The notes under the pieces: generated by a model
Told to the model about the DNA's origin: nothing
Database searches by the model: none
Seen by the model: only the letters and a program-made list of their open reading frames with translations
Source of the DNA: Yinghuangia seranimata
GTDB taxonomy: Bacteria > Actinomycetota > Actinomycetes > Streptomycetales > Streptomycetaceae
DNA length: 64,000 nt
Assembly (NCBI RefSeq): GCF_029953285.1
Contig: NZ_JASAOI010000007.1
Coordinates: forward strand, 62,001-126,000
Reading direction: 5' to 3'
Shown: in pieces, positions 53,028 through 58,006 of the stretch
Position numbering within the stretch: position 1 is the first letter of the stretch
Layout of the letters: each line of letters begins with the position of its first letter
Made by a program: the position numbers and the translations under genes

Positions 53028-54170
53028 TCAACTCCCGCGGCGCCGGGGGTCGGTCGTCGTCAGCCACGTGACCATGCGCGTGACGTCCGACCCGGACAGC
53101 ACGCCGAGGAGCCGGCCCTCGTCGATCACCAGCACCCGGTGCTCGGGCCCCGGTTCGAGCCGGGGCAGCAGGTCCCGCAGCGGCTCGTCGGGGCCGACCA
53201 CGGCGACCTGCGCGAGGGGCAGCATGACCGCTCCCACGGTCACCGCGCCGCGCCGGTACTCGGGCACGTGCTGCGCGGCGTGCAGCGTCAGCAGGCCGAG
53301 CGGGGCGCCGGCCTGGTCGGTCACCGGGTATGCGGAGTGCCGGTAGCGGTAGGCGTCGCCGAGGAGGAACTCGGCGACGGTGGCCGAGTCCGGCACGGTC
53401 ACGGGCTCGCGCGTCATGGCGTTGCGCACGGGGATCTGGCCGAGCGTCGCCCGCACCTCCGCCTGGCGGGCCTCCATCGTCGCCGCCGCGACCAGGAACC
53501 AGCCGATCGCCGCCAGCCACAGCCCGCTGAACGTGGTGCCGCGGATGAAGAGGAACAGGCCGAGGGCCACCAGCAGCCACCCGAAGGCACGACCCGCCGT
53601 CGCGGCACCGGTGGTCGCGCGCAGCCGGTCTCCGGTACGCCACCACAGCAGCGCGCGCAGGAGCCGGCCGCCGTCCAACGGCGCGGCGGGAATCGCGTTG
53701 AACACCGCCAGCGCGACGTTGATGACCGCGAGCCAGACCAGCGCGTCGACGGCCAGGCCCGCTCCGGAAGCCGTGTCCGCCGTCCACGCGCCCAGGGCGA
53801 ACACCCCGCCCAGCAGGAGGCTCACCAACGGCCCGACCCCGGCGATCCGCAGCTCCGCGCCCGGGGTCGCCGCCTCGCCCCTGAGCCGTGCGACGCCGCC
53901 GAGCAGCCACAGGACGATGTCGTCGACGTCGACCCCGTTCCGCCGCGCCACCACGGCGTGCGCCAGCTCGTGCGCGAGCAGGCAACCGAAGAACACGGCG
54001 GCCGTCAGCAGGCCCACCGTCCAGTAGGCCTCCGTCGAGTGCCCGGGATGCGCGTCCGGCAGCCGGCTGCGCGCCAACCCGATCGCGATCACCCCGAAAA
54101 TGACCGCGACGCTCCAGTGCACCCCGACCCGCACCCCGAGGATCCGCCCGAGCCGGAACGTGGCCCGCAC
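53028..54170 (-). CDS. Site-2 protease (M50) with CBS pair
   Basis: 380 residues. Membrane metalloprotease: HELAH with H67, E68 and H71, and the second zinc-binding segment NAIPAAPLDGGR, in about six helices. The C-terminal 140 residues are a CBS pair (NAMTREPVTVPDSATVAEFLL, GAVMLPLAQVAVVGPDEPLRDLLPRL, GVLSGSDVTRMV). The same architecture is found in the DosR-regulated mycobacterial protein Rv2625c. No clear box is seen directly upstream. The start is GTG 54170. It may cleave a membrane-bound regulator under adenylate control. Confidence 0.85.
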   Translation of the reverse strand: MRATFRLGRILGVRVGVHWSVAVIFGVIAIGLARSRLPDAHPGHSTEAYWTVGLLTAAVFFGCLLAHELAHAVVARRNGVDVDDIVLWLLGGVARLRGEAATPGAELRIAGVGPLVSLLLGGVFALGAWTADTASGAGLAVDALVWLAVINVALAVFNAIPAAPLDGGRLLRALLWWRTGDRLRATTGAATAGRAFGWLLVALGLFLFIRGTTFSGLWLAAIGWFLVAAATMEARQAEVRATLGQIPVRNAMTREPVTVPDSATVAEFLLGDAYRYRHSAYPVTDQAGAPLGLLTLHAAQHVPEYRRGAVTVGAVMLPLAQVAVVGPDEPLRDLLPRLEPGPEHRVLVIDEGRLLGVLSGSDVTRMVTWLTTTDPRRRGS

Positions 54171-54680: not shown

Positions 54681-56690
54681 TCAGAGCCGGCGTCGGGACG
54701 TCGCGAGTTGGCTGAGCGTGTAGCCGGTGCCGGTGGGGTCGAGGTGCTTGGTGGCCTGTTTGAAGAGGTACTCGGCGCGCTCGTAGGAGAGTCGGCCGCG
54801 GCCTGTGTCGGGGCACAGGTCGGCGGGGGCGGGCGTCCTGGCCGGGGCGGGTCTGCGGTCCGCCAGGAAGAGCGGTCCTCGGGTGCGGCCGCCGACCAGG
54901 GCGGGCAGCAGGCGGGCGGCGCCGGAGCGCCAGGAGACCGGGACGGAAGCCGTTCGGCCCTCGGCCGTGACGCGGGCGCAGCGGGCCGTGAGGTCGAGGT
55001 CTTCGACGTTGACGGACAGCACCTTCGCGGCGCCGGCGCCCGACTCGAACACGATCCGCCAGAGCGTTCGTTCGCGTAGCGGCACCGCGGGCATCCGCCA
55101 CAGGGCGTCGAGTTGCCCGGCCCCCAGGGCCGGTCGCCCCGTGCGGTCCTCGAGTCGCCGCTCCACGTCGGCCGCCAGGTCTGCCACGGACGCCCAGGAC
55201 GAGAAGGAGCGGACCGCCGCGCGGTGGCGGTTCCACGTCGGGGCCGCCGTGGCGCCCCACGTGACGGCGAAGACCCGGCCCACCTGACCGGCGGTCACGT
55301 CGGCCAACGCGGTCCGCGGCCCGAGGTCGAGGCACAGCCGGTGCAGGGTCTGGCCGTACGACCGGACCGTCGCGGCGCCGAGGTCCTCGCGGGCGAGGAA
55401 GTCGCGGACGGCCCCGCCCAGGGTGACGCCCGCCGTCCGGGTCGGGGCGTCGGCCGCGCGGCGCAGGAGGAAGGCCCGTTCGGGCGCGTTGCGGGTGAGC
55501 GCGGCCGCGCGTTCGAACTCCGGCGCGGCCTCGGCGTGGCGCCCGAGCCTGGTCAGCAGGTCGCCGCGGACGACGGACAGCAGGTGGTAGTCCTTGAGCG
55601 CCGGATCGGCGGTGAGCGTGTCGACCACGTCCAACCCCGCCTGCGGACCGTACGCCATGCCCAGGGCGACCGCGCGGTTGAGCTGGACGACGGGGGACGG
55701 CACCAGGCGGATCAGCGCGTCGTACAGCGCCGCGATCTGCCGCCAGTCCGTCTCGTCCGCGGTCCTCGCCTGGGCGTGCGAGACGGCGATGGCGGCCTGG
55801 AGGACGTACGGCCCCGGCGGCCCGCCGACCTCGCGGGCCCGCAGCATCGCCGCGAACCCGCGCCGGATCAGGAGCTGGTCCCACCGAGCGCGGTTCTGCT
55901 CGTGGAGCTGGACGGGCTCACCGGAAGGGCCGGTGCGCGCCGCGCCGCGCGACGCCTGGATCTCCATCAGCGCGACCAGGCCGTGGACCTCGGCCTGGCG
56001 CGGCGCCAGTTCGGCGAGCAACCGCCCCAGGCGCAGCGCCTCAAGGCACAGCGACGGACGCATAAGGTCGTCGCCGGACGTCGCCGTGTAGCCCTCGTTG
56101 AAGATCAGGTAGATGACCTCGAGCACCGACGAGAGCCGTCCCGCGAGTTCGGGGCCCGGCGGGAGTTCGAACGGGATGCGCTCCTCGGCGAGGACCCGCT
56201 TGGCCCGGGCGATGCGCTGCGCGACGGCCTGCTCCGACACCAGGAACGCGCTCGCGATCTCCGCGGCGGTCAGGCCGCCCAGGAGCCGGAGCGTCAGGGC
56301 GGCTCGGGCGTCGGCGGGCAGCACGGGGTGGCAGGAGACGAACATCAGGCGCAGGACGTCGTCGTCCACGCGTTCCTCGAAGTCCCGCTCCTCCGCTCCC
56401 TGTTGTTCCAGCGTGCGGGCGAACTCACCGTGCTTGCGCGCCATCCGCTCGCTGCGGCGGAAGTGGTCGACGGCGCGCCGCTTGGCCGCGGTCATGAGCC
56501 AGGCGCCGGGGTTGTCCGGGACGCCCTGCGTGGGCCACTGCTCCAACGCCGCGACCAGCGCGTCCTGCGCGAGCTCCTCGGCGAGACCCACGTCGTGGAC
56601 CATCCGGGTCAGCCCGGCGATGATGCGCGCGGACTCGAACTTCCACACCGCGTCGATCGCGCTATGGGCGCCCGGGGCCGTCACGCGCAC
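54681..56690 (-). CDS. ECF42-type sigma factor fused to a degenerate tyrosine-recombinase domain
   Basis: About 669 residues. Residues 1-175 hold sigma region 2 (LAQDALVAALEQWPTQGVPDNPGAWLMTAAKRRAVDHFRR) and region 4 (LTLRLLGGLTAAEIASAFLVSEQAVAQRIARAKR). The DUF6596/TPR part follows (LEVIYLIFNEGY ... RAVALGMAYGPQAGLDVVD), ending near RAFLLRRAADAP, a normal ECF42 end. A further ~250 residues continue in frame: a SAM-like core-binding part (VRDFLAREDLGAATVRSYGQTL) and a recombinase catalytic-like part (LWRIVFESGAGAAKVLSVNVEDLDL ... RLSYERAEYLFKQATKHLDPTGTGYTLSQL). The catalytic Arg, the HxLRH box and the Tyr are absent. Start GTG 56690 or 56684. Confidence 0.8.
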   Translation of the reverse strand: MRVTAPGAHSAIDAVWKFESARIIAGLTRMVHDVGLAEELAQDALVAALEQWPTQGVPDNPGAWLMTAAKRRAVDHFRRSERMARKHGEFARTLEQQGAEERDFEERVDDDVLRLMFVSCHPVLPADARAALTLRLLGGLTAAEIASAFLVSEQAVAQRIARAKRVLAEERIPFELPPGPELAGRLSSVLEVIYLIFNEGYTATSGDDLMRPSLCLEALRLGRLLAELAPRQAEVHGLVALMEIQASRGAARTGPSGEPVQLHEQNRARWDQLLIRRGFAAMLRAREVGGPPGPYVLQAAIAVSHAQARTADETDWRQIAALYDALIRLVPSPVVQLNRAVALGMAYGPQAGLDVVDTLTADPALKDYHLLSVVRGDLLTRLGRHAEAAPEFERAAALTRNAPERAFLLRRAADAPTRTAGVTLGGAVRDFLAREDLGAATVRSYGQTLHRLCLDLGPRTALADVTAGQVGRVFAVTWGATAAPTWNRHRAAVRSFSSWASVADLAADVERRLEDRTGRPALGAGQLDALWRMPAVPLRERTLWRIVFESGAGAAKVLSVNVEDLDLTARCARVTAEGRTASVPVSWRSGAARLLPALVGGRTRGPLFLADRRPAPARTPAPADLCPDTGRGRLSYERAEYLFKQATKHLDPTGTGYTLSQLATSRRRL

Positions 56691-56758: not shown

Positions 56759-57073
56759 TCAGAAGAGCTGGCGCATGAGGGTCTCGCCGTCACCGATGAT
56801 CTTGAGGAAGCGCCGGGACAGCTCCATCGCCTCCTCCTTCGACTGCACCTCGATCAGCGCGTACCCGCCGACCGCCTCCTTCGCCTCGGTGAACGGCCCG
56901 TCGGTCACGGTGATCTCGCCGCCGGCCGACGTGATGAAGCTGCCCCCGAGCTCCATCCCGCCGGTGGCCAGCAGCACACCGGTCTTCGTCAGCTCCTCGA
57001 CGAACTTGCCCATCTCGGCGAACAGGGCCTCGTCGTGGCTCTTGTCGCTGGTGCTCGTCAGCAGGAATCGCAT
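56759..57073 (-). CDS. DGPF-domain (YCII-related) protein
   Basis: 104 residues: MRFLLTSTSDKSHDEALFAEMGKFVEELTKTGVLLATGGMELGG..., with the TDGPFTEAKEAVGGYALIEVQSKEEAMELSRRFL signature. DGPF proteins are the standing partners of ECF42 sigma factors and are usually among their targets. ATG 57073 has AAGGAGA. It lies 68 bases ahead of the sigma gene in the same direction, so the two may share a transcript. Confidence 0.9.
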   Translation of the reverse strand: MRFLLTSTSDKSHDEALFAEMGKFVEELTKTGVLLATGGMELGGSFITSAGGEITVTDGPFTEAKEAVGGYALIEVQSKEEAMELSRRFLKIIGDGETLMRQLF

Positions 57074-57135
57074 CGCCGTGTCTCCTTCGTGCTCGAACCC
57101 GTAGCCGGGCTTTCCCCTGTGCGTCGAACGACCCC

Positions 57136-57183
57136 ATGTGACAGGGAACGCAGCCCGCGCACCCGATGCGTTCCCTGTCACAT
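57136..57183. promoter_or_regulatory. Perfect 17-bp inverted repeat between divergent genes
   Basis: ATGTGACAGGGAACGCA (57136-57152) and its exact complement TGCGTTCCCTGTCACAT (57167-57183) flank 14 bases. Each arm reads TTCCCTGTCACAT pointing outward, one toward the DGPF gene (63 bases) and one toward the DUF998-like gene (137 bases). The TGTCACA could be a pair of back-to-back ECF -35 elements, with TCGA-like sequences farther out on both sides. Confidence 0.7.
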
Positions 57184-57203
57184 CCCCAAGACGACGCGTG
57201 GTC

Positions 57204-57319: not shown

Positions 57320-58006
57320 ATGACCACCGCCGCCGCCACCGCCACCGCCACCGCCTCCCTCCCCCGAGCCACCTCCCCCGCCTCGGCCACGACTCGACGC
57401 CTGCTGACCGCCGGCGCCCTGGCCGCACCCGTCTGGGCGGTCGTCTCCCTCACCCAAGCCCTCACCCGAAACGCGTTCGACCTGACCCGGCACCCCCTCA
57501 GCGCCCTGGCCAACGGCTCGCTGGGCTGGATCCAGATCACGAACTTCCTGGTGTCGGGAACGCTGTTCATCGCCGGATCCGTCGGCCTGCGCCGCGCCCT
57601 CCTCGGCACACCGGGCGCGACCTGGGTGCCCCGCCTCGTCATGACCGCCGGCATCGGCATGATGGCCGCCGGCATCTTCCGCATGGACCCGATGGACGGC
57701 TTCCCGGCCGGCACGCCCTCCGGCACCCCGGACACCCAGTCCTGGCACAGCAACCTGCACATGGTCAGCGGAATGCTGTCCTTCACCGCCCTGGCGGCCG
57801 CCTGCTTTGTCCTCGCCCGCCACCACTCCCGCGCCGGCCGACCCCGCACCGCCATCGCCTCCCGCACCGCAGCCGCCGCCCTCATCGCCGGCAACGCCTG
57901 GGCCCTCTCCGGCGCCCCTGCAGGAGCCCTGACCATGGCCGTAGGCGTCACCACCGCCATGACCTGGATCAGCACCACAGCCTTCCGCCTCCGCACCCCC
58001 GTCTGA
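57320..58006 (+). CDS. DUF998-type membrane protein
   Basis: 228 residues with six hydrophobic helices (LLTAGALAAPVWAVVSL, ITNFLVSGTLFIAGSVGL, LVMTAGIGMMAAGIF, MVSGMLSFTALAAACFVLA, AAAALIAGNAWALSG, LTMAVGVTTAMTW). FRMDPMDGFPAGTPSGTPDTQSWHSNLHMVSG is the family signature loop. Function unknown. ATG 57320 follows GAAAGG. Divergent from the DGPF gene across the inverted repeat, so it is a candidate target of the ECF42-type sigma factor. Confidence 0.8.
   Translation: MTTAAATATATASLPRATSPASATTRRLLTAGALAAPVWAVVSLTQALTRNAFDLTRHPLSALANGSLGWIQITNFLVSGTLFIAGSVGLRRALLGTPGATWVPRLVMTAGIGMMAAGIFRMDPMDGFPAGTPSGTPDTQSWHSNLHMVSGMLSFTALAAACFVLARHHSRAGRPRTAIASRTAAAALIAGNAWALSGAPAGALTMAVGVTTAMTWISTTAFRLRTPV

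Follow-up and report, generated by a model that had tools for sequence, protein, structure and literature searches.

What would a bacterial sigma factor do with most of a tyrosine recombinase attached to its C-terminus? The question is raised by a gene of Yinghuangia seranimata, carried on the 64,000-nucleotide stretch of DNA analysed here (contig NZ_JASAOI010000007.1, positions 62,001 to 126,000; hereafter the window). A first-pass annotation of the window had read this gene as a complete ECF42-type sigma factor fused in frame to a catalytically dead recombinase domain, which could provide a second DNA contact. The fusion itself holds: there is a single open frame of 669 codons, without internal stop, on the minus strand (54681-56690), a strand that the annotation had not given. 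From the comparison of the fused genes, of their promoters and of their relatives, the answer that we favour, with a probability of about 0.6, is that the dead recombinase took over recognition of the -35 element and kept its ancestral half-site.

Residues 1-415 have the sequence of a normal ECF42 sigma factor. The window protein is matched by Sigma70_r2 at residues 25-82 (4.3e-10), Sigma70_r4_2 at residues 117-165 (1.9e-11) and DUF6596 at residues 185-285 (1.1e-35); the NCBIfam sigma70-ECF model scores 54.3 bits (cut-off 42.9), and a weak TPR match is seen at about 372-402, with TPR_2 and TPR_16 under their cut-offs. Seven further ECF42-like paralogs of the same genome are 44-52% identical to it over about 400 residues. 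None of the seven aligns with the fused protein past residue 426, and its C-terminal part has no other match in the window's genome. The sigma2 and sigma4 domains, the TPR-type extension and an adjoining YCII gene are ECF42 features; the ECF42 group promoter motif, TGTCGA / CGA, is not found, and only its -35 half departs. We file the protein under ECF42 because of its domains and its sister relation to that group in the tree (see below), as a variant rather than a typical member.

The fusion is neither unique to this assembly nor a sequencing error. It was found in about 60 loci of five actinobacterial families, with 61 fused open frames among 86 loci (two are the window itself and one proved later to be frameshifted). 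Among 394 genomes of the host family, the C-terminal part was matched in 170, many of these matches being standalone integrases, and at least 30 genomes carry the fusion, defined as an open frame with an adjacent sigma match; this count possibly misses some carriers, and the fused frame is broken in two of those counted (genomes G131 and G182). A scan of named genomes gave at least 48 loci, at least 33 of them distinct with fused full-length rows, in Streptosporangium, Microtetraspora, Streptomyces, Kibdelosporangium, Amycolatopsis, Pseudonocardia, Actinomycetospora, Hamadaea, Amorphoplanes, Rhodococcus and others. The DUF998-YciI-sigma order is also present on complete plasmids of Streptomyces sp. 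NBC_00250 and of two S. anulatus strains; the many loci and these complete, independently annotated records rule out an assembly or sequencing artefact, with which the purifying selection on the domain (see below) is also at odds. Neither is the C-terminal part an ordinary ECF42 extension: the stop-to-stop frames of 20 non-fused sisters (the best-ranked of a list rather than a random sample, and all from one family) are 423-502 amino acids long, mostly about 430. Phage records gave just two matches to the fused protein, both confined to the sigma part.

Built from the sigma part of 86 rows and rooted at the midpoint, a maximum-likelihood tree, which raised long-branch warnings on the paralogs, unites the 59 fused rows in one clade (support 99/93) alongside the 20 non-fused sisters (100/97), and the fusion has, by this tree, a single origin. 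Duplicate strains (L017 of L050, L019 of L059) and the second copy of the window (L001) were dropped. The window fusion groups (100/99) with that of Streptosporangium canum (L039) and with genome G020, away from its congener G001, which suggests horizontal transfer; other fusions are located on Streptomyces linear plasmids.

The integrase layout that the first-pass annotation had seen in the 250 or so residues following the ECF42 body is borne out by domain matches and by structure prediction. Phage_int_SAM_1 matches the window protein at residues 436-500 (E 8.5e-4) with 20.0 bits, just missing the gathering score of 22.3, and exceeds that score in relatives L039 and L045. The AlphaFold2 model of residues 411-669, built from 41 sequences, has a mean predicted local distance difference test score (pLDDT) of 94.6 and a predicted template modelling score of 0.79; the mean pLDDT of the full-length model is 87.8. 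Using Foldseek and VIA-align, tyrosine recombinases were matched across nearly the whole domain, XerA among them. VIA-align Z scores were 14.8 for VchIntIA (230 residues, 3.5 Å), 14.7 for XerH, 14.5 for Tn1549 Int, 14.1 for lambda Int and 14.0 for Cre. The domain profile also matches XerD (E 5.4e-5), and what we take to be the catalytic Arg of XerD aligns with a degenerate column of the fusions.

The core-binding and catalytic folds are therefore both recognizable, the latter truncated, and the catalytic R-K-HxxR-H/W-Y set is missing from the fusions. Among 57 aligned fusions (L036 was left out), the first Arg column holds R once, the beta-hairpin Lys column K once and the box His column H three times; the H/W and Tyr columns are empty in all 57. 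The box Arg column is different: 30 fusions have R there and 23 have K. In the window protein the catalytic Arg is indeed Gly (ESGAG, residues 549-553), HxLRH is SQLAT, with A at the box Arg, and the chain ends before the Tyr. The standalone integrases, in contrast, mostly keep R, K, HxLRH, H and Y: of 13 rows labelled standalone, 11 have the first Arg, 11 the Lys, 12 the box His, 12 the box Arg, 11 the H/W and 11 the Tyr. One of the 13, L076, is cut by a contig end and has no catalytic residues; in spite of its label in alignment and tree, it is probably a fusion. The fusions end 13-43 residues past the RAEYLFK motif, and all standalones except L076 run on for 66-75. Catalysis is thus lost by the criterion of sequence, and DNA cleavage and strand exchange are predicted to be absent, the nucleophile being gone. 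Conservation across the fusions is concentrated in the segments RSYGQTLRRL, TWNRHRAAVRSF, LNVEDLDL, RTRGPLFLADRRPGPAR and CPxTGRxRLSYERAEYLFKQAT.

Is the domain then a neutral remnant, left by read-through into a neighbouring integrase gene? Loss of the catalytic residues would be expected of such a remnant, as would a ratio of nonsynonymous to synonymous substitution rates (dN/dS) higher than in the ECF part, observed in 15 of 16 close pairs, and the frameshifts in two of the 30 counted carriers. The ratio itself, however, is 0.19-0.53 for the domain in these 16 pairs (0.14-0.26 for the sigma part), which means purifying selection, weaker than on the sigma part, and on this ground we rejected the relic reading. 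A conserved end point, a fold predicted with high confidence and a single origin maintained across families likewise make it highly improbable.

The fused intergenic regions have one block in common. In 59 of 62 fused upstream regions (L150 and L161 were dropped), the 13-bp half-site TTCCCTGTCACAT (at most two mismatches) is followed, after 7-8 bp, by TCGACG (at most one mismatch), a pattern found in none of the 20 non-fused sisters and none of 310 shuffles. Nineteen of the sisters have TGTCGA-N17-CGA before the YCII gene (extended to CGACG in the sequences inspected) and lack the half-site; in the remaining sister, L121, no YCII gene was detected and the site is absent. Reciprocally, TGTCGA-N15..19-CGAC is present in 0/62 fused upstreams. 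Since sisters have TGTCGA and CGACG where fusions have TTCCCTGTCACAT and CGACG, the -10 element stayed and the -35 element changed. CGACG was taken as the -10 element, and the -35 slot assigned, from the spacing and from the promoters of the sisters; counted upstream from CGACG, the half-site covers about 9-22 bp and so overlaps the old -35 slot (18-23 bp). The TGTCAC inside the half-site was considered as a shifted TGTCGA and ruled out, as it lies 10-11 bp from CGACG and not 17. A second, inverted arm (at most two mismatches) is found in 47 of the 62 regions, with a centre of 8-10 bp in 44 of them and of 22 bp in the window.

Some individual promoters depart from this layout. In the deepest-branching fusion (L062, Acrocarpospora, 2960-2998) two half-sites stand in direct tandem, 26 bp apart, instead of being inverted. 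The frameshifted fusion of G131 (L139/L143, G131:C186) has lost the promoter half-site too. In two loci both arms share one departure from the consensus (TTCCCTGCCACA in L140 of genome G162, TGTCGCAT in L052), as if both arms followed a single reader.

The half-site also tracks the fusion at the scale of genomes. A 10-mer of it together with CGACG occurs in 28 of the 394 family genomes: among the matches listed, 25 of the 30 carriers and 3 of the 364 others (Fisher 2e-31, a value that ignores the relatedness of the genomes). The reversed pattern, used as control, was not found in any of the 394. Of the three non-carriers with the pattern (G120, G129, G160), none has the full 13-mer at two mismatches or fewer, save for one G120 site. 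In the window's genome the 13-mer at one mismatch or fewer is restricted to the two arms and a single further position (the reversed control matches once as well), and the exact 13-mer is confined to the fused locus. Because of this near confinement, the predicted regulon is a single divergent promoter. In a phylum-wide sample, run as a background control, the full motif was found in 1 of 296 genomes, the window's own.

Where could such a half-site come from? Pfam identifies three standalone relatives of the domain as integrases (Phage_integrase, 1e-11 to 1e-14). Upstream of the standalone int genes lie inverted half-sites of 12-13 bp with a centre of 6-7 bp and a third, direct copy 66-78 bp further on; the arms in the fusions are mostly 8-10 bp apart. 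This resembles irs, the site of TnpI, which according to passages of PMC7157771 lies upstream of the resolvase gene, contains promoters and consists of the core inverted repeats IR1-IR2 and two direct repeats. The irs-like layout is present in 8 of 11 scanned loci (L178, L181, L182, L081, L063, L072, L071 and L082), and four more loci (L065, L074, L085, L086) have one arm or the third copy only. L081 has exactly the TTCCCTGTCACAT of the fused promoters in one arm and in its third copy, L072 has it in one arm, and L063 in its third copy, with one mismatch in each of its two arms. The arms of L071 are TTCTGTGTCACAG, and L082 and the plasmid integrases L178, L181 and L182 have half-site versions of their own. 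The window domain is 56% identical over 191 residues to L063, a Nonomuraea integrase, and in the domain tree (L078 and L083 dropped) L063 and L081 are the integrases nearest to the fusions.

As to the standalone integrases themselves, L178, L181, L182, L180, L071 and L072 are separate genes, most with an irs-like site and some next to mer or Tn3 genes on actinobacterial plasmids. Among five plasmid integrase loci, whose elements were not delimited as a whole, mer genes adjoin three, a Tn3 transposase adjoins L180 and neither is found at one. They are possibly a little-described group of TnpI-like resolvases, each with its own half-site version.

The palindrome could also be read by some other protein, its match to the integrase sites being a coincidence or the trace of a still-mobile recombination site. 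Palindromic sites placed between divergent genes are a common mark of repressors, and the neighbours searched systematically around the fusions are YCII and DUF998, which leaves room for a third conserved regulator. Yet copies of the 13-mer with one mismatch or fewer, none of which arose when a 10.7 kb locus was shuffled 20 times base by base, lie upstream of relatives of this very domain, and the distribution among the 394 genomes follows the fusion. An unrelated reader is, for these reasons, hard to believe in.

The recognition helix of sigma4 was compared as well. We aligned sigmaE by motif to the ECF42 segment TVAQRIVRAK, sigmaE residues V170, I174 and A177 being placed in this alignment as we presume them to be. 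The equivalent of R176 is R in 27/27 non-fused proteins and in 4/59 fused ones, which ranks it first of 388 sites for relaxation; the equivalents of T169, S172 and R171 rank 2, 12 and 22. The equivalents of R173 and R178 are kept in 58/59 and 57/59 fused proteins. According to passages of PMC6713349, R171, S172 and R176 of sigmaE contact bases, R173 and R178 contact the backbone, and T169 touches the backbone and makes a hydrophobic contact with G-34. (Our statements on sigmaE and on ECF and ECF42 classification draw in part on passages of PMC8999054, PMC8103513, PMC6180224 and PMC6713349.) Mean pairwise identity hardly differs between the fused proteins (0.73) and the sisters (0.76), so that the relaxation of the helix is not a matter of general divergence.

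These data bear on a shared reading of the promoter, in which a sigma4 with an altered helix would still recognize the first bases of the half-site, TTCCC, as its -35 element. The domain would then serve to raise affinity or to gate a signal, by reading either the rest of the half-site (TGTCACAT) or the partner arm. TTCCC is 16-17 bp from CGACG, near the N17 of the non-fused sisters; the retained backbone-contacting R and K of sigma4 fit this arrangement, position 161, A in 57/59 fused proteins and V in 20/20 sisters, could be a new specificity, and the second arm of the 47 loci could host the domain. TTCCC is nearly invariant, yet the residues that would have to read it vary among the fusions: T16/V12/R10/A7 at position 155, Q25/R25 at 158 and A/G/T/D/E at 162. 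Moreover, the half-site of the Nonomuraea integrases contains TTCCC too, and no sigma factor is known to work there; nine fused loci keep the promoter without a recognizable second arm (five mismatches or more). We regard shared reading as unlikely, though to be kept in mind.

The pairing of half-sites in most loci has another possible meaning, that of an on-board autorepressor: the domain, perhaps as a dimer, would bind the palindrome and block or loop the promoter until a signal is received. Dead tyrosine recombinases do exist as repressors, an example being MrpR (passages of PMC10516654), and according to passages of PMC7157771 the binding of TnpI modulates promoters within its own irs site. 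On the other hand, the fused promoters have lost TGTCGA, so that transcription must rely on another contact upstream, and in the loci with a single arm the distance between half-site and -10 element is still 7-8 bp. Autorepression as the role of the domain seems improbable.

Replacement of the -35 contact by the domain, the reading that we prefer, would have proceeded as follows. An ECF42 sigma factor would have captured most of a tyrosine recombinase resembling the actinobacterial plasmid and transposon integrases with a TnpI-like site, the half-site being acquired together with the domain or after it. The first Arg, the Lys, the box His, the H/W and the Tyr would have been discarded, and the core-binding domain and the front of the catalytic domain kept as a half-site reader. 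In the holoenzyme, sigma2 would read the unchanged -10 element (CGACG) while the domain, joined to the chain after sigma4 and the TPR extension, would read the 13-bp half-site in the former place of TGTCGA; base reading by sigma4 would then have relaxed, leaving mainly its backbone contacts. The usually divergent promoter would drive the YCII-sigma operon, hence autoregulation, and the DUF998 or DUF1801 gene, in a self-contained one-locus switch. The second DNA contact proposed in the first-pass annotation thus gains comparative support and a likely target, TTCCCTGTCACAT at the promoter and at the core-like sites of the standalone integrases; it would, however, replace the -35 contact rather than be added to it. 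The wider proposition, that -35 reading was handed to a domesticated recombinase and that half-site and protein, recruited jointly, spread through Actinomycetota as a single module on chromosomes and plasmids, we hold to be somewhat better than an even bet.

Several observations weigh against this reading. The motif is missing in 3 of the 62 fused upstreams (L046, L139 and L062); that of L139 belongs to a frameshifted gene, and L062 has the half-site, with a -10 element elsewhere. Conversely, half-site and -10 element are both still perfect at the frameshifted fusion of G182 (L142), and a non-carrier, G120, has a half-site with two mismatches. The faster evolution of the domain relative to the ECF part, already mentioned, belongs here too, and the active-site region was not simply abandoned, because the box Arg keeps R or K in 53/57 fusions. 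The scan found no irs-like pair in L179 (82 bp of upstream sequence covered), L180 and L073, although another inspection marked a divergent half-site pair in L073. The position of L063 and L081 in the domain tree is weakly supported, on a branch that falls among fused rows, and both int frames look interrupted near the core-binding domain. In sigma4, the window protein, which has A at 155 and at 161, is among the 4/59 that keep the base-contacting Arg (R162) and it keeps Q158 too; the second most relaxed site of the helix, that of T169, contacts the backbone in sigmaE and no base; and the retention of the backbone residues suggests that sigma4 still touches DNA. Finally, the half-site overlaps the -35 slot, where sigma4 and the body of the recombinase would both have to fit.

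Table 1. Features of the fused locus (window coordinates).
Feature	Position	Strand	Basis or remark
Fused ECF42 sigma factor and dead tyrosine-recombinase gene	54681..56690	-	669 aa (amino acids), GTG start 56690, TGA stop
Sigma2 and sigma4 domains (residues 1-170)	56181..56690	-	Pfam
Sigma4 recognition-helix segment SEQAVAQRIARAK (residues 152-164)	56199..56237	-	Sequence comparison; contacts from passages of PMC6713349
Usual ECF42 C-terminal extension, DUF6596 and TPR-like (residues 185-415)	55446..56138	-	Pfam
Recombinase-derived domain, core-binding and truncated catalytic domain (residues 416-669)	54684..55445	-	Pfam, alignment, AlphaFold2, fold matches
Gly553 codon (catalytic Arg in standalone relatives)	55032..55034	-	Alignment
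RLSYERAEYLFKQAT (residues 633-647), putative DNA-contacting helix	54750..54794	-	Within most conserved domain segment
YCII/DGPF gene, directly upstream of fused gene	56759..57073	-	Pfam YCII 8.5e-12
-10-like TCGACG of YCII-sigma promoter	57122..57127	-	Upstream comparison
Half-site TTCCCTGTCACAT of YCII-sigma promoter, in -35 slot	57136..57148	-	Upstream comparison
Second, inverted half-site TTCCCTGTCACAT, divergent promoter	57171..57183	+	22 bp between arms
-10-like ACGACG of divergent DUF998 promoter	57191..57196	+	Upstream comparison
DUF998 membrane-protein gene, divergent, predicted co-target	57320..58006	+	Pfam DUF998 2e-36, start codon

How does this arrangement compare with known systems? 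With the ECF42 factors Sven_0747 of S. venezuelae, ECF-10 of P. putida and RpoE10 of S. meliloti, the fusions share sigma2, sigma4, the DUF6596/TPR extension and an upstream YCII/DGPF gene, and their CGACG-type -10 element is that of the non-fused ECF42 sisters; they differ by some 250 additional recombinase-derived residues, the replacement of TGTCGA, the relaxed sigma4 helix and the divergent DUF998 or DUF1801 gene. The prophage repressors MrpR (= YopR, SPbeta) and SroF (phi3T) put a recombinase fold to the service of transcription control, as proposed here, and are recovered as fold matches (Z of 9.5 for 8a0a, 10.1 for 9rgl and 10.0 for 9rd5; 8bj6 in Foldseek). MrpR has a tyrosine-recombinase fold, has lost recombinase function and acts as a repressor (passages of PMC10516654). 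These are stand-alone phage-encoded proteins, whereas the domain considered here belongs to a sigma factor, with its site at the -35 position; the fused protein is not a repressor of that type. An extra domain behind sigma4 is common to the fusions and to other ECF factors, with SnoaL (ECF41/SigJ), CorE-type or zinc-finger (ECF52) extensions and no separate anti-sigma factor; in the passages of PMC8999054 and PMC8103513 consulted, these extensions sense ligands or bind proteins and none is described as a promoter-reading recombinase domain. No sigma-recombinase fusion is named in the titles and abstract starts of the open-licence PMC papers searched. To our knowledge, such a mode of promoter recognition has no precedent among bacterial sigma factors; the SnoaL_2 domain of SigJ reportedly modulates promoter recognition.

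If the proposed reading is right, a sigma factor can have one of its promoter elements read by an unrelated DNA-binding fold in place of the original reader and import the new element as well, the 'addressing' domain of a mobile element being captured along with its address. This would bear on how sigma/promoter pairs gain new specificities, and the 13-bp half-site plus CGACG would be a natural route to orthogonal promoters. The ECF42 group, the signals of which are unknown, would gain a compact one-locus member (YCII, sigma and DUF998) with a nameable target and regulator, and dead recombinases a new fate besides that of phage repressors such as MrpR.

In the 33 named fused loci a YCII match is present in 32 and a DUF998 match in 23, in the order divergent DUF998 - YCII - sigma. 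At L049, L050 and L054, a DUF1801 gene (by Pfam) takes the place of the divergent DUF998 gene. In Kitasatospora (G206; L097, G206:C16, 1515) the second site faces, by inspection, a DUF1801-like gene, the interrupted frame of which has no Pfam match. In these loci the partner gene is swapped, DUF1801 for DUF998, and the promoter half-site stays the same. In the window, a gene for an M50 site-2-type protease with CBS domains lies just downstream of the fused gene (53028-54170, minus strand).

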